Shown in pieces: positions 1-8,100 of a DNA stretch of 64,000 nt. The stretch is from Cystobasidiopsis lactophilus (taxonomy: Eukaryota; Basidiomycota; Agaricostilbomycetes; Agaricostilbales; Chionosphaeraceae). The position numbers and the translations under genes were made by a program. The stretch spans positions 471,434-535,433 of the forward strand of contig BCIO01000004.1 in NCBI GenBank assembly GCA_001599975.1, given 5' to 3'. Under the pieces are notes generated by a model. The model was not told the origin of the DNA. It saw nothing but the letters and a program-made list of their open reading frames with translations, and searched no databases. Position 1 is the first letter of the stretch. Each line of letters begins with the position of its first letter.

Positions 1-2974
1 GGGCGGAATGGTGAGCGTGGCGCGCTCCCCCTTTAGACTGTTCAGGCTGACGGTCTTCTGTACGACGTCATCACACAGCTACCGCCCCAAGGCTTTCTGT
101 TAAGACCCAATCTCTTGCTGGGGGCCTGGTGCGACTATGTGGCAAAGCTACCAGTTACAAATTTGCCACTGAAGAGCGACGGGTCACCAATGCCGGTGTG
201 TGCCCTCTTCCTACCCAGCCCTAGAACTGTGGCTTGAGGATTTTGAGGAATACCACAGCGCGCCTCAGGGGGGAGCCTGCAAAGGGCGACTGATCGTGCA
301 AAATCGTTTTTAACGAAGGCAACAAGTGCGGTGCGTTTCTTGTTCCCTTCCTTATAGACCTGTTCTCGGAAGATCTGAAATTGACAGACATAAATGCACA
401 GACTGGGAGGAGTTCAGCTGCCTCAAAACCGCTCTGGTGAGTTCGCGGGAGCACCACCTGAGATCTGCGCTGGGCAAGGTCTTAGTTCGCCTGTCGAGCT
501 CACAGTTGCCACCGAGGCCGATGGTCGCGGCCAGGAAACAGCCTTTTGTGTGCTTTGAGGCGAGAGGTGGCGGGGCGTGGTGAGGTGAGTTTGGAGCTCT
601 TCACTTTAGATCAACTAGAACGAATGTGTCTAACGAGTGAAGTTCCATTTCACAGATTTTGGGACTGGTCTTTCGGATTTGTGCGCCTAATATGAGGTTT
701 CTTTTTGCTGCTGTGGCATAACGAAAGCACTGGGCAGAGGTGGTGAGCGTGGCGAGCTCCCCTTTCAGACTTGTTCTGGGCTGACGGTCTCCTGATTACG
801 ACGCCCTCACAGCTACCGCTCAAAGTCTTCCTGTTAAAACCCAATCTCACGCTGGGGTCTGGTGCGATTATGGCAAAAAACTACCAGTTACAAGTTTGCC
901 ACTGAAGAGCGACGGGTCACCAATGCCGGTTGCGTCCACCCCTTCCTATCTTAGCCCCAGGACTATGGCTAACGAGATTGAGGTGCTGCCACAGTTTACC
1001 TAGAGGAAAGCCGACCAAAGGAGACTTTTCGTGAAAGGTCCTGTTTGAACATCGGTACAAGTGCTGTGCGTTCCGTGTCCCCTTCCTCATTGACCTTTTC
1101 CGAGAGATCTCACTTCAGCGGTTGCGAATACACAGATGTCGACCAAGTTCAGCTGCCTCGAACCCGCTTTAGTGAGTTCGCGGGAGCACCACTAGACGAT
1201 CTTGCTTGCCCGAGTTCTCAGATGGAAGCGGCGCTCACAGTTGCCACCGAGGCCGATGTCGGGGGAACAACTAGCCTTTCTCAAGTGCTTCAAAGAGAGG
1301 TGTGGTGTGGTTTGGTGAGCTCGGAGCTCTTCACTTTAGATCAACTAGAACGAATGTGTCTGATGGTCTGAAGTTCTACTCACAGATTTTGGGACTGGTC
1401 TTCGGATTCGTGTGCCTGATATGAGGTTTTTTGCTGCTGTGGCATAACGAAGCACTGGGCAAGAGGTGGTGAGCGTGGCGCGCTCCCCTTTCCGACATGC
1501 TCATGCTGACGGTCTCCTTCATGCGACGCTATNTCACAGCTACCGCTCAAGGCTTCCTGTTAAAACCCAATTTGACGCTGGGGCCTGGTGCGATTATGGC
1601 AAACCTACCAGTTACAAATTTGCCACTAAGTTGCGATGGGTCCCAATGCCGGTTGCGTCCCCCTCCACTCTGAGCTCCTGAGCTGTAGCTCAATCTTGTT
1701 CGGCCGCAACAGGTCGCCTAAGGTTGAACTACGATGGTGAAGTTACACGCAAGGTCGTCTTCAGCATCGGGAGACAAAGTGCGGTGCGTTCCATGTCCCC
1801 TTCTGCATTGACCTTTCCTGGAAGATCTGACAAAGGATATACTGTGCACAGACAGAAAGAGTCTATGCTGCTTGAAGCCGCTCTGGTGAGTTCGCGGGAG
1901 CACCACTAGACGATCTTGCTTGCCCGAGCTCTCAGATGGAAGCGGCGCTCACAGTTGCCACCGAGGCCGATGTCGGGGGAACAACTAGCCTTTCTCAAGT
2001 GCTTCAAAGAGAGGTGTGGTGAGGTGTGGCGTGGTGAGTTCGGAGCTCTTCACTTTAGATCAATTAGAAGGAATGGTCTCACGTTGTCGGAACCAACTCA
2101 CAGATTTCGGGACTGGTCTTCGGACTCATATGCCTGAGATGAGGTCTTTTGCTTGCAGTGGCATAACGAAAGCACTAGGCAGAGGTGGTGAGCGTGGCGC
2201 GCTCCCCTTTTAGACTTGTTCGGGCTGACGGTCTTCTTTGTCTTGCGACGTCCTCTCACAGCTACCGCCCAAAGGCTTCCTGTTAAAACCCAATCTCACG
2301 CTGGGGCCTGGTGCGACTATGGCAAAACTACAAGCTGCAAATTGCCACTGAGGTACGATGGGTCTCAATGCCGGTTGCGTGTCCTCTTGCCTTTAGTTCC
2401 GGAAACGTAACTTGACGAAGTTCAGGCATGCCACAGAGCGCCTAAGAGAGAGCCCATCAAGGAAGAGTTTACGTGAGAGGTCCTGTTTTAACATCGGAAG
2501 ACAAGTGCGGGTGCGTTTCTTGTCCCCTTCCTCATTGGCCTTTTCCGGAATGCCTGAAAGGCTTCGATATGAGCGCACAGATGGCGACCAAGTTCAGCTG
2601 CTTGAAACCGCTCTGGTGAGTCCGGGAGCACCGCCTGAGATCTTGCTGGGAAAGTTCTCAATGGGCGCTGGCTTCGCAGTTGCAACCAACGTCGATGATC
2701 GCGGCAAGATACACAGCCTTTGTGTGTTTTGAGGGGAGAGGTGGTGTGGTGTGGTGAGTTTGGAGCTCCTACCCTAGATCATCTTGAGCAAATGGTCTGA
2801 GCTTGGTGGCTCCGCTCACAGATTCGACTGGTCCTCGGGGCGGAAGAATAATGTGATGGTTTTGGAGCTGTTGTAGAACGGAAGTGTCGGGCAGAGGTGG
2901 TGAGTGTCGCGGAGCCTCTCTCAGACATGGTCATGCTGACTTGTTTGGCTCTTTTGTTGCCGTGCTTCTCACAG
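1..2974 (+). repeat. Higher-order tandem array of intron-like modules (left array)
   Basis: About 21 modules of 61-75 nt start with GT(G) and end with CACAG or similar. Five types recur in fixed order. Donor-acceptor pairs: type A 11-78, 743-812, 1469-1539, 2188-2261, 2900-2974; type B 196-258, 929-994, 1652-1712, 2374-2436; type C 331-401, 1066-1135, 1784-1851, 2511-2580; type D 437-505, 1173-1240, 1886-1954, 2616-2679; type E 585-655, 1315-1385, 2034-2103, 2754-2821. A-to-A spacing is 732, 726, 719 and 712 bp, so this is a five-module higher-order repeat in about four copies, cut by the left window edge. Types A, D and E have GTGAG donors and type C has GTGCGT. Type B has mostly lost its donor (GTTGCG in three copies). 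Most modules carry a CTRAY-like branch-point candidate and complementary arms such as AGAC/GTCT. Spacers vary in length without keeping frame (A-to-B spacer 117, 116, 112, 112 nt), so I do not call it coding. A transcribed multi-intron non-coding RNA or an intron-derived satellite both fit. Confidence -1.
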
Positions 2975-3290
2975 TTGTCATCCTAGGCTTCCTGGCGGCA
3001 TACCATGGTCTTCTACGTGCTCTTGCATGCGGTGTCGCCGCTCTCAACGTCTCAAGGGATCGCGAACGGTGGCGTCCAGGTCACTCGCATCGGTCTTCCC
3101 TTCGGTCCACTGCCTGCGCTCTGTCTGCGCTTCCTAGCATTGTACACTACTCCTACTGTCCAATCATCTGTAATCAACCGCTCCGGATGCATCTCAAATC
3201 CCACGATTTGCCACCCCTAGCTCATTTTGTCGTCACCCCTCCCAAAAATTTCTTTGTCCTCCCCTCCCTCTTGATCCAAAGGCGACAACG

Positions 3291-4418
3291 ATGTTCAAAG
3301 CGACTACCCGCCTGCCTCTGCGCACTCTACGACCAGCTTCAATCAGACCAGCGTCGACCCAAGCCGGCAAGGGACGAAGCGGGTTAGTCAGTGCTGCTGC
3401 CCTCGGCGTCGCTGTCCTCGGCGGGACTGTGTTGGTGTCGAGGTGGACGGGTCAACCTGAGAAGCGTCGATTAGCTCTAGAGAGTGCGTCTTGTCCCTTG
3501 ATTACTTAGGGTTGAGTATTGAATGCCGAGCAGAACTGGATACTTCCCGCGCATCTCGCCTGACACCTACGCCAGTCACTCAAGCCGCAGAAGAAGCAAG
3601 CGAAGAAGATCAATCAGCAGCCTACGACCCGGTGACAGGCGAGATCAACTGGGACTGCCCCTGCTTAGGAGGGATGGCCAATGGTCCATGCGGCGAAGAG
3701 TTCAAACAGGCGTTCGCGTGCTTTGTGCATTCCACCGAAGACCCAAAAGGCATGGATTGTGTGGACAAGTTTAAGGGCATGCAGGAGTGCTTTAGAAGGC
3801 GTATGTCCCCGTCACTTTTTGAAGGGGATGAGGGCTGAGAGAAGGAGTAAAGATCCGGATGTTTATGCCAAAGGTTCGTCGATCTCCCTTACAAAGACAG
3901 ACTTTCAAGCTTGTCTAATGAGAAACGACTCGAGAACAGAAATAGCGGACGACGACGACGACCTCGAGCTCGATTCGGACCCCGACACCCCTCCACCCTC
4001 TTCGACCTCTTCCGAAAGTTCCTACGTCGACCTAGCTTCTTCAACAGCTTCCGAAGCAGCTTCAAAAGTAGTCGAAGTAGCTTCCAAAGCTAAAGACTCG
4101 GCAACTTCCCTCCTCTCCCCCGGCGAGTCCGAAGCAGAGCACAAAATTGTCAATGCGGGCGAGACGCAGAGAGCGTACGCCGAGCACGGTACTACTGTTC
4201 GTTCCCCTTCCCTCCTCCACACATCTTCCAGTGTATGAAAAGTTGAAGGGGGCAAACAGAAACATGTAGCGGGCGGTTCGACGCCCGAACATTCCAATGC
4301 GACGGGAGGGAAGAGAGAATTAGCGGGTAGGAACTCGGCGAAAGGGGAGAAACCGAGTGGCAAAGGGGAGGAAGCGCAGAGGAAGCATAAGGAGGCGGTG
4401 GAGAAGACTAGATCTTAA
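3291..4418 (+). CDS. MIA40: Mia40/Tim40, mitochondrial intermembrane-space import oxidoreductase
   Basis: Mia40 is the disulfide-relay receptor that oxidises and traps small Cys-rich proteins entering the mitochondrial intermembrane space. The N-terminus is basic and Arg/Ser-rich (a presequence), followed by a hydrophobic stretch ([16 protein letters not shown]) that would anchor it in the inner membrane. The core shows the redox motif DCPC and two Cx9C segments ([11 protein letters not shown] and [11 protein letters not shown]), then FRRHPDVYAK. Exons: one ends near 3483, the next runs to the GTATGT donor near 3801 and resumes near 3853. A later intron (donor near 4191) leads into a Lys/Glu-rich tail ending TRS and a TAA at 4416-4418. 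A 27-nt in-frame stretch at 3874-3900 has GT...AG ends; it could be a nine-residue insertion or an ultra-short intron. The acidic D/S/T-rich and Lys-rich tail is long for the family. The gene lies between two intron-like arrays. The identification is secure; the exact 3' splicing is less so. Confidence -1.
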
Positions 4419-4562
4419 GGGGTGGGTTTTCTTTGCACGACTTTAGAATTTTCATAAGGATGGAATTCTGAGTTTGGCGAGGAGTATCACAGATATGTTG
4501 TGGGTCGGGAATGAAGAATGGTGTAGAGGAGGGAGAAGGAAGGGGAGGGAGAGGGAGAGAAG

Positions 4563-7500
4563 GTGAGGTGGTGCTCCCTGTAGATCTCCGCTCTGGCTGA
4601 TCTACAATGATGGCATCTTGATTCCTCACAGATGTCTGAAACCTCCAGCATCTTTAGCCTGGCGATGACCGAAGGAAGGGGGAGGGAGAGGTGAAAGATG
4701 GAGAGATGGAGAAATGGTGAGTAGGTGGTGGCTTCCCTGTAGATCTCCGCTCTGGCTGATCTCGAGGAGTTCCACCTCTCACAGATGTCTCAATTCCAGC
4801 ATCTACGGCCTGGCATAACCGGAGGAAGGGGGAGCGAGAGAGAAGGAGGTGAGACAAGGTGAGAGATGGTGGCTTACCTGTAGATCTCCGCTCTGGCTGA
4901 TCTAGAATGCCATTTTCATTTGCTCACAGATGTCTAAAAGCCCCAGCATCTATGGCTTGGCGATGACGGAAGGAAGGGGGGAGGGAGAGGTGGAAGAGGG
5001 AGAGATGGTGAGTAGATGGTGGCTTACCTGTAGATCTCCGCTCTGGCTGATCTTAGATGGCACCATGTTTGCTCACAGATGCCTTAAAGTTTCAGCATCT
5101 CTGACCTGGCATTGACGGACGGAAAGGGGAGGGAAATGAGGAGGTGGAGGTGAGAAGCGCGCACCCCCACTCCTCAGATCTGCTTGCCGATCTCAGCTTT
5201 GCCGTTGTCTTCACAGACATCCAAGCTCTACGAGCGCATCGGTATCGGGCAAGATCGAGAGGGTGGAGAGGGCGAAGGTGAGAGAGAGCCGCCCTACTCC
5301 AGATCTTCGTTGCTGATCTGCCTCTTGGCTGTGTTTCACAGAGATCTCAGCTTCAGCATCTAGTATCTGGCACGGAAGGCAGAAAGGGGGAGGAACGAAA
5401 AGGGAAGAAGGTGAGAGCCGCGCAATCACCTTTAGATCTCCCCATTCTGATCTAATAGAGCTGGCTCCGTTCACAGCGGTCTCAATTTCACGAAGAGAGC
5501 ATTTATGGCCCTAACAGGCGAAAGGCGGAAAGCGTGGAATGGAGATTGAGGAAGGGCCTTGAAGGTGAGAGAAGTCGGTTTACCTTTAGATCTTGCCCTG
5601 CTGCGGCTTGCTGATCTGCTGTTGCCGGTACATTCTCTCACAGACATTGCAGCTCCAGCATCTATGGCCTGGCACCGACGGAAGAATGACGGGGGGATGA
5701 GGCAAGGTGCTAAGGTGAGAAGAGCTGGCTACTTTAAAGATCTCCCTCTTAGCTTTACCATACTTGTCGCCCTCTCACAGAGCTCTATGCTCTTTGAACG
5801 TATTTGGCATCGGGCAAGATCGAGAGGAAGGCAGGAGAGGACTAAGGTGAGAGCGCGCTGGCTTACCTTAGATCTTACCCTGCTGCGGCTTGCTGATATA
5901 ATTTCGCCGTCCTCCCGCTCTCACAGAGATTGCAGCTCCATCATCTATTGATCTGACTGAGGAGCGGAACGCAGCTGAAGAAGGGCAAAGAGGCAAAGGT
6001 GGGAAGCGCGGACTTAAACCTCTAGATCTTCTTGCTGATCTTGTTCTTTTCGGAGCCGTCTCACAGAAGGCAATTGCAAATGAGCCAACCATGAACGTCG
6101 GAGGACAAAACGGCTGAAGGTGGAGGGGAATGAGAGAGGGGCTAAGGTGAGAGAACGCTGGCCTACCTGCAGATCTTACCTTGCTGATCTGCGATTGCGG
6201 TGTTCATTGCACAGAGGTCTCAGCTCCAGCTTCTATTGCCTGGTCAAGACGAAAGGACGGGCAGGCAATGAGGAAAGGTGCTAAGGTGAGTAGACGCCGC
6301 CCACACCTCAGATCTCTTCTCTGATCTGCGAATTTCTGGCACTTGTTCACAGAGACCCAAGCTCTACGCACGCATTTGGTTTTAGGCAAGACCGAGAGGA
6401 TGGGGAGGGCTAAGGTGAGAGAAGCTGCTCTACTTTAGATCTCTGTTGCTGATCTACACTCGCCATTTGCTCTCTCACAGATGTCTCGTTTCCAAAAGGA
6501 CCACCTGCGACCTCCCATGACCAGCGGAAGGCGAGGGGAAGAAGGCGAGGAGATGAGGGTGAGAGGAGCTGCCCTACTTTAGATCTTCCTTGCTGATCTG
6601 AGTTTGGTCGTCTTTTTGTTCTCACAGATATACTACTGTTGAAACGCGCTCACATTCCTGTCCGGCAAGATGAAAGGGAGACAAGGGAGGTGTGAAGGTG
6701 AGAGACCGCCGCCCATTTCGACTAGATCGTTTCTGATCTCGTTCCAATCTGCGCCTGCTTACAGCCGTCTCCCTTTCAAACCGATCTGCTATGGTATCTA
6801 TGTCTCCGATCATCCATTTCCTCGAAGGAAAAGAAGAGAACGGTGGGTGACTTTCGTTGCACTAGATCCTTACTCCGGTTCTAATCTATCGAGGTAAACC
6901 ACAGGTTTCCAGGCCTCGGTGTGAGAGTGCAACGCAGGTGAGCCAGTGTGACCACCTTAGATCCTTTGACGGTTCTTAGTAGCAGTCGAGTGTTCACAGA
7001 ATTCCAGGCTTTCTTGGTGGTGGCAATCTGAAGTGAGTCTCGCGTTTTACTTTAGATCCTCTTGGTAGAGTTCTCATGTATTGCGCAACTTCACAGTCAG
7101 CTATCGCTTGAAAGTGCCTAGCGAGAGGCGAAGGGACGCTCCAGGTGAGGCAGGCGGCATTACCTTCGATCTCCTTGGATCTAACGTCATTTGCGAAACC
7201 CACAGAGATTCACACTTACTGTCTCAATCATACTTCTATGGCGCGCCAATCGGAGAAGGAGGTGGGCTAGTTGTAGCTTTAGATCCTTTCCTTCGGCTCT
7301 CAAAGCTTTTTTGCGCTCTGCCCACAGATCGTTCTTCATTCGACACCGAGCATAGAAAAGTGCAGAAAGGTGAGCGACTGCCCATATATGAGATCCTCGG
7401 CTGGTTCTAAAAGAGTCGTTATGCTCACAGCGCTTTCAGCCTACACCTTTTGCCCTCTTGCCCCTCTTCCAGTGCCTCAGAACTTGCACTTCACCTCCAT

Positions 7501-7860
7501 TTCCTGTGAGTAGCTGTTCGAAATTTGAGGTCTTTCACGAGGTCTCATCGTGGAAGTCACCTTGCTCACAGACTCCCCACCTTCTCGCCTTTCCTCTTTG
7601 ACTTGTCGCCCCCTGGGCCCGAATCCATCGGATGAACCTCTAACACAGCTGATGTGGGTCTGTTCTCGCACTTTAGATCTTCCATTGGTTCTAAATGCAA
7701 AAAATGCGCCACAGGCAGTTCGCATTTCGACCTTTCTCTTCGCCCCCAGGCCCTTGTCCAGCCTCTCCTATTCTTGGATACGTTCACCTCGGATTATCGT
7801 GAGCACTGGCCCATCCTTAAGATCTTTTTTCTGGTCTAACGCAGCAGTTGCGGTCCACAG
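4563..7860 (+). repeat. Tandem array of intron-like modules (right array)
   Basis: About 25 modules of 58-80 nt lie in one direction. Donor-acceptor pairs: 4563-4631, 4717-4784, 4859-4929, 5008-5078, 5150-5216, 5278-5341, 5411-5476, 5565-5643, 5715-5780, 5847-5926, 5999-6066, 6147-6214, 6286-6352, 6415-6480, 6559-6627, 6698-6764, 6847-6904, 6938-6999, 7033-7096, 7145-7205, 7262-7327, 7370-7430, 7506-7571, 7654-7714, 7799-7860. Donors are mostly GTGAG and almost every acceptor is CACAG. Internally they share TTTAGATC, then CTGATCT about 12 nt later in the first 16, or GGTTCTAA in the later ones. AGATC and GATCT are complementary, so a hairpin surrounds the CTGAT or CTAAT branch-point candidate. 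Spacers are 33-88 nt. Up to about 6700 they resemble each other in alternating subtypes; beyond 6840 they are unrelated while the module signals persist. Spacer lengths do not keep frame. I read this as a real intron-rich transcript, probably non-coding, or an array derived from one. Confidence -1.
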
Positions 7861-8100
7861 ATTGCCGCTTCTCTCTCAATGCCCTTATTCCCTTATCCAT
7901 CACCACAAAGCCATGTCTATCAAGCATGTAACTCTCTCCAGAACGCTCTCCTCCTTGCATTATACAACCCCAAACCCCACTCTCACTTAAAGCTGAAGCT
8001 GCTGCTGATGTCCATTATAAGAAGGCATTTCGAATGAGCCTCCCATTGTCCGTGGCCATGCTCTTAAATGCGTCTAGGTTTATAAAGAAAGTCCAGGATT

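Follow-up and report, generated by a model that had tools for sequence, protein, structure and literature searches.

Tandem arrays of short intron-like modules in the genome of Cystobasidiopsis lactophilus

Organization of the locus

The 64,000-nucleotide stretch of Cystobasidiopsis lactophilus DNA analysed here, called the window below, corresponds to C4:471434-535433 (contig BCIO01000004.1 of assembly GCA_001599975.1) in a genome of 22.1 Mb and 8 contigs. Its left end holds two tandem arrays of short modules that resemble spliceosomal introns and alternate with segments that we call exons, with a CHCH-domain gene between the arrays; a third array is found elsewhere on C4. Modules were located by patterns of donor and acceptor ends.

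An earlier reading of the window, made from its letters only (the sequence-only reading), had described array 1 as about 21 modules of five types, A to E, and this description was confirmed. Positions 1-2974 hold 21 modules of 61-75 nt, five of type A and four each of types B, C, D and E, always in the same order, and the A modules start at 11, 743, 1469, 2188 and 2900, with spacings of 732, 726, 719 and 712 and thus the described period of 712-732 bp. The array had also been seen to run off the left edge, which it does for about 2.4 kb, to about C4:468,994 (position 7561 of L007, the sequence left of the window); six further modules in L007 bring the total to 27. A run of 1,530 N (L007 8471-10000) lies inside the array and ends exactly at the window start; by simple arithmetic, with the flanking E modules starting 2231 bp apart, this gap hides about two units. 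The right edge was placed near position 2994 by profile homology (E=0.037 for the final piece). Since every unit holds all five types, no module was dropped for lacking end motifs. The exons measure 112-117 nt between A and B, 71-74 nt between B and C, 34-36 nt between C and D, 74-85 nt between D and E and 77-87 nt between E and A, and segments of the array are 57-83% alike between copies.

Array 2, which was absent from the sequence-only reading, consists of 26 modules of 61-80 nt separated by exons of 33-88 nt. Its mean spacing is 135 nt and start-to-start distances stay at 95-154 nt throughout, so no module seems to have been skipped by the end-based detection. Both arrays share the strand of the gene that precedes them. 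The stop codon of the CHCH-domain gene, which we take to be MIA40-like, ends at 4418, and 3 nt separate it from the first module of array 2. Array 1 begins within the last codons of a 331-codon open frame ending at L007 7602, in which no Pfam family scored above cut-off; a UBA domain (E=1.1e-9) is encoded just upstream of this frame. The features of the window are as follows.

1..2994, + strand, array 1, in-window part, units A-B-C-D-E of 712-732 bp
11..78, + strand, array 1 module A
196..258, + strand, array 1 module B, donor GTGTG
331..401, + strand, array 1 module C, donor GTGCG
437..505, + strand, array 1 module D, lowest fold energy of the set, -32.8 kcal/mol
585..655, + strand, array 1 module E
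743..812, + strand, array 1 module A
929..994, + strand, array 1 module B, donor GTTGC
1066..1135, + strand, array 1 module C
1172..1240, + strand, array 1 module D
1315..1385, + strand, array 1 module E
1469..1539, + strand, array 1 module A, contains one N
1652..1712, + strand, array 1 module B, donor GTTGC, end AACAG
1784..1851, + strand, array 1 module C
1886..1954, + strand, array 1 module D
2034..2103, + strand, array 1 module E
2188..2261, + strand, array 1 module A
2374..2436, + strand, array 1 module B, donor GTTGC
2511..2580, + strand, array 1 module C
2616..2679, + strand, array 1 module D, end CGCAG
2754..2821, + strand, array 1 module E
2900..2974, + strand, array 1 module A, the final one
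3291..4418, + strand, CHCH-domain gene between arrays 1 and 2 (CHCH PF06747, E=4e-8; start read by eye)
4422..7860, + strand, array 2, 26 modules
4422..4492, + strand, array 2 module 0
4563..4631, + strand, array 2 module 1
4717..4784, + strand, array 2 module 2
4859..4929, + strand, array 2 module 3
5008..5078, + strand, array 2 module 4
5150..5216, + strand, array 2 module 5
5278..5341, + strand, array 2 module 6
5411..5476, + strand, array 2 module 7
5565..5643, + strand, array 2 module 8
5715..5780, + strand, array 2 module 9
5847..5926, + strand, array 2 module 10
5999..6066, + strand, array 2 module 11
6147..6214, + strand, array 2 module 12
6286..6352, + strand, array 2 module 13
6415..6480, + strand, array 2 module 14
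6559..6627, + strand, array 2 module 15
6698..6764, + strand, array 2 module 16
6843..6904, + strand, array 2 module 17
6938..6999, + strand, array 2 module 18
7033..7096, + strand, array 2 module 19
7145..7205, + strand, array 2 module 20
7262..7327, + strand, array 2 module 21
7370..7430, + strand, array 2 module 22
7506..7571, + strand, array 2 module 23
7654..7714, + strand, array 2 module 24
7799..7860, + strand, array 2 module 25

Splice signals of the modules

The modules were compared with 94 control introns, 89 of them distinct, which are flanked by open coding frames and were chosen partly by likeness to GTGAGT, CAG and CTRAY, candidates scoring below 7 having been dropped. The 94 kb made up of the window and L007-L009 hold 45 of these controls, and the other 44 come from loci fetched by pattern. 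A GTGAG or GTGCG start had been ascribed to most modules of array 1, and 17 of the 21 in the window carry one (GTGAG 13, GTGCG 4; the remainder are GTTGC 3 and GTGTG 1); the proposed CACAG end is present in 19. In array 2, all 26 modules start with GTGRG and end with ACAG, 25 of them with CACAG. These are also common ends in the 45 controls, where GTGAG occurs 13 times, GTGCG 11 times and CACAG, the commonest end, 10 times. Spans of the form GTG[ACG]G...CACAG number 16 on the + strand of array 1 and none on the - strand, with a mean of 0.5 and a maximum of 3 in 200 dinucleotide shuffles; array 2 has 25 where 0.3 are expected, and one on the - strand. The exon ends in AG before the donor in 17/26 cases in array 2 and in 1/21 in array 1, where 19/21 exons end in G. 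With GT..AG ends that follow the donor and acceptor consensus of this genome, the modules would be classed as U2-type introns.

Conservation inside the arrays

As a test, the sequence-only reading had proposed comparing the GT...AG ends with the rest of the unit, and in array 1 the terminal columns did prove to be more conserved than those of the interior or of the exons. Over the 27 modules, 49/60 terminal columns are invariant, as compared with 109/261 ungapped columns of the intron interior (Fisher 2e-8) and 185/357 exon columns (Fisher 1e-5). Within the interior, the first half is more alike than the second in every type (A 0.80/0.65, B 0.56/0.47, C 0.83/0.48, D 0.84/0.46, E 0.76/0.57). 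In array 2, for which identities were computed on modules 1-16 of the 26, the donor (0.91) and the acceptor (0.96) are best kept, followed by the inner part (0.67) and the 5′ arm (0.55); the 3′ arm is at chance level (0.48 versus 0.46 shuffled) and the exons are near it (0.58 versus 0.49). Selection is the probable cause of the conservation of the splice ends.

Two smaller observations concern array 1. Its best-kept exon is the one between A and B (0.83, the others being at 0.64-0.65), located at window positions 79-195, 813-928, 1540-1651 and 2262-2373; it has no match in Rfam. Module D and the exon that follows it are nearly identical in two adjacent units (1172-1240 and 1886-1954), and as the other parts of these units differ, gene conversion is likely.

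Pairing of intron ends and the inner stem

In most modules of arrays 1 and 2 the minimum-energy fold runs from end to end and leaves an AG overhang, and many modules also form an inner stem-loop near the branch site. Measured against dinucleotide shuffles, the sole baseline for this figure, fold z scores have a mean of -2.2 in array 2, and the type means of array 1 range from -0.8 to -2.1. Terminal runs of five or more pairs, G-U allowed, are found in 16/21 modules of array 1, 20/26 of array 2 and 9/45 controls of the 94 kb (Fisher 3.6e-6 for array 2 versus controls). By duplex energy, the modules' own ends pair better than swapped ones (P=17/5000 in array 2 and 0/5000 in array 1), the array 1 value reflecting the five founder types; within types it is 155/5000.

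Ordinary introns show end pairing too, more weakly and not in every sample. In the 45 controls of the 94 kb, the own terminal run is 2.73 versus 2.18 for swapped ends (0/5000), and at least five terminal pairs occur in 20% of own versus 6% of swapped combinations. The 44 controls from pattern-fetched loci give 2.20 versus 2.03, which is below significance (426/5000), and the duplex energy of own versus swapped ends shows no effect over all 89 controls (1471/5000). GT...ACxx spans were also counted in roughly 250 kb of sequence lying outside arrays 1 and 2, with array 3 included and overlapping loci left unmerged: at least six Watson-Crick terminal pairs are formed by 22.7 per 1000 spans ending in AG (43/1895) and by 10.2 per 1000 ending in the other fifteen dinucleotides (249/24356), figures that are no unbiased genome rate, since part of this sequence was fetched by the inner-stem pattern. 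A first scan for terminal stems under loose criteria, with overlapping loci likewise unmerged, had yielded no excess (153 versus 152-156 in shifted registers). Matched ends outside arrays 1 and 2 include GTACGTT..AACGTAC, GTTCGT..ACGAAC and GTAGGT..ACCTAC, and many of the end-paired spans there have an inner stem as well, in a listing selected for inner stems. One intron-like sequence (L063 340-403) combines an 11-pair terminal stem with an inner stem of 8 Watson-Crick pairs.

When a covariance model was trained on array 2 only, it found 23 further matches in the 94 kb, 16 in array 1 and 7 elsewhere. The ten best all fall in array 1 (28.5 to 18.9 bits), the first outside match scoring 18.7 bits, and the model misses 11/27 array 1 modules, including type B entirely. 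In the alignment of the 26 array 2 modules, standard pairs fill 92.9% of cells (91.9 when shuffled, reached in 18/500), and stem covariation amounts to double changes in one pair and three cells, a score reached by 46/500 shuffles. RNAalifold retained only four pairs in array 2, all of the inner stem. This stem, across the branch site, is significant in array 2 (0/400; 18/26 modules used) and not significant in array 1 (271/400; 17/27 used). As a general rule for introns it is not established: it does not reach significance in the controls of the 94 kb (P=103/400; 35/45 used, 10 being without a usable branch motif), nor in all controls, part of which were fetched by the inner-stem pattern (32/400; 70/89 used). 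Genome-wide, the four pattern combinations TTAGCC/GGCTRAY, TTAGCC/GCCTRAY, TTAGGC/GCCTRAY and TTAGGC/GGCTRAY were counted 61, 8, 9 and 20 times (Fisher P=0.037), and the backward-pattern controls, in the same order, 21, 24, 9 and 19 times. This outcome is only suggestive, as TTAGCC/GGCTRAY alone clearly exceeds its control whereas the compensated TTAGGC/GCCTRAY does not.

Coding capacity

Arrays 1 and 2 lack convincing coding sense. Their longest unspliced open reading frames (ORFs) in six frames, 129 and 133 codons, are close to the medians of 134 and 132 obtained from shuffled sequence. When array 1 is spliced in silico on the + strand, the longest ORF has 134 codons, below the shuffled 95% point of 151. 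Exon lengths vary between copies by frame-shifting amounts, and the exon sums of the array 1 units (382, 390, 380, 380 and 373) are not constant modulo 3.

A third array and a MatE-like gene

Array 3 lies at approximately C4:134,065-135,364 (L064 326-1625; also in L070), about 337 kb away, and is made of two five-module units spaced 729-746 bp. It is flanked on one side by a - strand gene, which by eye we take to be PEX14-like, and on the other by a MatE-like gene, and there is no same-strand gene in front of it. Of seven relatives of the MatE-like gene (P0003, MatE E=6.6e-7), two are recorded with PF01554. At the end of each array 3 unit, a piece made of exon, intron, 29-nt exon and intron aligns to a similar piece inside the MatE-like gene with scores of 88 and 98, as compared with shuffled means of 25 and maxima of 47 and 54 (0/1000 each); the exons alone score 29 (shuffled mean 17.2, 7/1000). 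This homology points to a partial gene duplication, which may have proceeded in either direction. The genome segments examined revealed no source gene for array 1 or array 2.

Although array 1 and array 3 both have five modules in about 730 bp, a homology of E-A-B-C-D with modules 1-5 of array 3, suggested by eye, found no support, the in-order mapping ranking only 53rd of 120. A four-module rhythm in array 2, also an impression by eye, was discarded: it is faint in the exons (0.624 at lag 4, 0.56-0.60 at other lags) and absent from the introns, whose lowest value, 0.635, falls at lag 4.

Origin and possible role of the arrays

Arrays 1 and 2 are probably tandemly amplified exon-intron cassettes, the modules serving as spliceosomal introns of a spliced non-coding RNA. 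Each cassette would comprise an exon of 33-117 nt and a short spliceosomal intron of 61-80 nt, and the cassettes would be carried by a spliced RNA without a protein product. As both arrays start at the 3′ end of a gene on their own strand, the RNA could be a spliced 3′ trailer of that gene or a read-through product; equally possible is a separate long non-coding RNA with its own start at this point. The major spliceosome would remove the array introns one by one, and these introns may belong to a structured type of this genome, with donor-acceptor pairing, a 2-nt AG overhang and often an inner stem-loop near the branch site. We infer transcription, splicing, the promoter used and any benefit of the arrays from the DNA sequence. 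Growth of the arrays could have occurred by unequal exchange or by partial duplication of intron-bearing gene segments, after which selection would have preserved the splice signals and left much of the remaining sequence to drift; array 3 still bears homology to part of the gene next to it. Through end pairing, the two splice sites of a very short intron may be drawn close to each other; alternatively, the pairing may be a remnant of terminal inverted repeats.

Several observations weigh against this interpretation. A CTRAY-like branch point had been attributed to most modules, but the strict motif is at the expected place in only 9/21 modules of array 1 (CTNAY in 13/21), so that this part of the sequence-only reading is weaker than suggested; the strict motif is found in 17/26 modules of array 2 and in 32/45 controls, which were partly selected for it. 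The statement that every monomer looks like an intron is borne out by types A, C, D and E and to a lesser degree by type B, all four window copies of which have the poor donors GTTGC or GTGTG; the type B copy in L007 has GTGCG. One spliced ORF of array 2 reaches 163 codons where the shuffled 95% point is 145; arithmetic places it at the right end of the array, at about 7,120-7,990. In array 1 the arms without the ends pair no better than within-type swaps (P=1154/5000), and donor-acceptor pairing within one intron could hinder splicing rather than help it. Finally, some of the similarity among ends could be due to gene conversion or recent duplication rather than to selection.

Alternatively, the arrays may be decaying tandem duplicates of gene parts, without present function and with introns as mere remnants. 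We regard this as rather doubtful. It would agree with the homology between array 3 and both exons and introns of the adjacent MatE-like gene, with the position of the arrays next to genes, with the unconvincing coding sense of arrays 1 and 2 and with the divergence of array 1 segments, but neutral decay leaves unexplained why the splice-site columns of array 1 outlast the interior and the exons, and why GT..ACAG is intact in 26/26 modules of array 2 despite exons near shuffled identity. That the arrays are instead mirtron-like clusters is quite unlikely. The excised introns would then be debranched to hairpins with an AG overhang, cut by Dicer and loaded onto Argonaute, and the arrays would be poly-hairpin small-RNA loci. 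Most modules do have paired ends with a 2-nt AG overhang and end-to-end folds, with z scores below dinucleotide shuffles in both arrays. Their 5′ arms are better conserved than their 3′ arms in array 1 (0.76-0.84 against 0.46-0.65 in types A, C, D and E) as well as in array 2 modules 1-16, as would be the case for a guide strand, and the genome encodes a Dicer-like protein (Dicer_dimer PF03368, E=1.8e-18, with RNase III domains too; L047) and Piwi domains at four places. Against this, the stems are short and interrupted, and arm pairing beyond the ends is weak (184/5000 for all 26 array 2 modules, 791/5000 for modules 1-16, and the array 1 value given above). Moreover, the best-conserved interior part of array 2 is the inner stem and not an arm, and the 5′ arms of types A and D, allowing up to three mismatches, match nothing else in the genome outside array 1 except at one place for A, a control pattern also giving one match.

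Repeated insertion of an introner-like element into one locus appears very unlikely. Single intron-like sequences of the same two-stem layout do occur at other loci, two of them (L016 1480 and L008 903) among the introns flanked by open coding frames, and fungal introner-like elements have been described with inverted repeats or stable folds (excerpts of PMC8469720); the terminal inverted repeats of the modules are present but short, as the terminal runs above indicate. The exons, however, are repeated along with the introns, a pattern that is clear in array 1 and fainter in arrays 2 and 3 and that argues for duplicated segments rather than insertions, and the dispersed introns share layout but, as far as seen, not sequence. 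When 701 bases of array 2 were searched against the whole genome at the DNA level, the query itself was the only match, but this search was insensitive, as it missed the array's own other modules. The probability that the arrays form a coding gene with internal intron-carrying repeats is close to negligible: the exon lengths are steady for each type in array 1 and the long spliced ORF of array 2 would fit, but the spliced ORF of array 1, the unspliced ORFs and the unit exon sums do not.

If arrays 1 and 2 are indeed amplified exon-intron cassettes of a non-coding RNA, they would bear on intron multiplication, which has mostly been studied in coding genes, where the protein hides the reason for which splice sites are retained. 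Tens of diverged, apparently non-coding copies with preserved splice signals offer a test of the use of splicing without a protein, which might lie in RNA export, in decay of read-through RNA or in a use of the excised intron. The arrays would also supply dozens of natural variants for asking whether donor-acceptor pairing helps, blocks or is indifferent to splicing when introns are very short. Array 3, for its part, hints at how a gene duplicate could turn into an intron array. It is tempting to go further and to see the excised introns, built as two-stem RNAs, as the actual product of tandem intron factories behind genes, which would supply Dicer and Argonaute or serve as sinks for the spliceosome, although we consider this unlikely. 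Were it true, short introns would consist of a donor-acceptor clamp and a branch-site hairpin, amplified by the dozen at loci behind genes.

Comparison with known systems

Satellite DNA with higher-order repeats is composed of units of several monomer types in fixed order, a trait shared by array 1, and the sequence-only reading had accordingly spoken of a satellite. This term fits poorly. A genome-wide DNA search with one array 1 unit returned at least six places, all within array 1; the array consists of exon-intron units whose exon lengths are steady, and array 3 is partly homologous to a coding gene, so that the arrays look more like amplified gene parts than like a free satellite. They also differ from satellites in being single short loci beside genes, with arrays 1 and 2 sharing the strand of the preceding gene, and in their conserved splice signals. 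Mirtrons are short introns in which the donor pairs with the acceptor and leaves an AG overhang; the array introns are likewise short and mostly paired at their ends, but their stems are shorter. Introner-like elements of fungi were reportedly described by van der Burgt in 2012.

Among the matches listed in the open-licence literature, judged by their titles and the openings of their abstracts, there was no description of intron-exon unit arrays like these. The fungal introner group treated in excerpts of PMC9860276 is that of Pezizomycotina, and PMC4457414, likewise in excerpt, deals with introner-like elements of Dothideomycetes. As described there, introners resemble the modules in being short spliceosomal introns of many copies, with inverted-repeat ends in a good part of the families, but they are near-identical and occupy unrelated gene positions, whereas we observe tandem exon-intron units outside recognisable coding sequence. 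The symmetrical (stw)introns of Hypoxylaceae have terminal inverted repeats of 45-55 nt and novel gene positions according to the excerpts of PMC8469720; these repeats are similarly able to form hairpins, but are longer and lie within genes, and the excerpts do not mention exon-intron arrays. In the tandem genomic duplication model of intron gain (PMC4974935, in the portion available), tandem duplication alters intron number too, but within one coding gene, as opposed to tens of diverged copies without recognisable coding sense. The available part of PMC9757828 states that mi/milRNAs wholly within introns are very rare in fungi, except in Cryptococcus neoformans, and that their splicing-based processing is unconfirmed and needs more evidence.

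A host cluster for snoRNAs of the H/ACA or C/D class was discarded, the distance from inner stem to ACA varying by eye and Rfam giving no match at gathering score in the window and none up to E=5 in positions 1-8000. As for the Piwi loci of this genome, one Argonaute locus is located at C4:543248-543964, about 8 kb right of the window, and the others are at C4:140.6-141.5 kb, which is some 5 kb away from array 3, at C2:622.7-623.7 kb and at C2:716.1-717.1 kb. Two stretches with RNase III domains, spaced by about 1 kb and distinct from the Dicer-like gene, are found at C1:765163-766314; one of them is just below the family cut-off.

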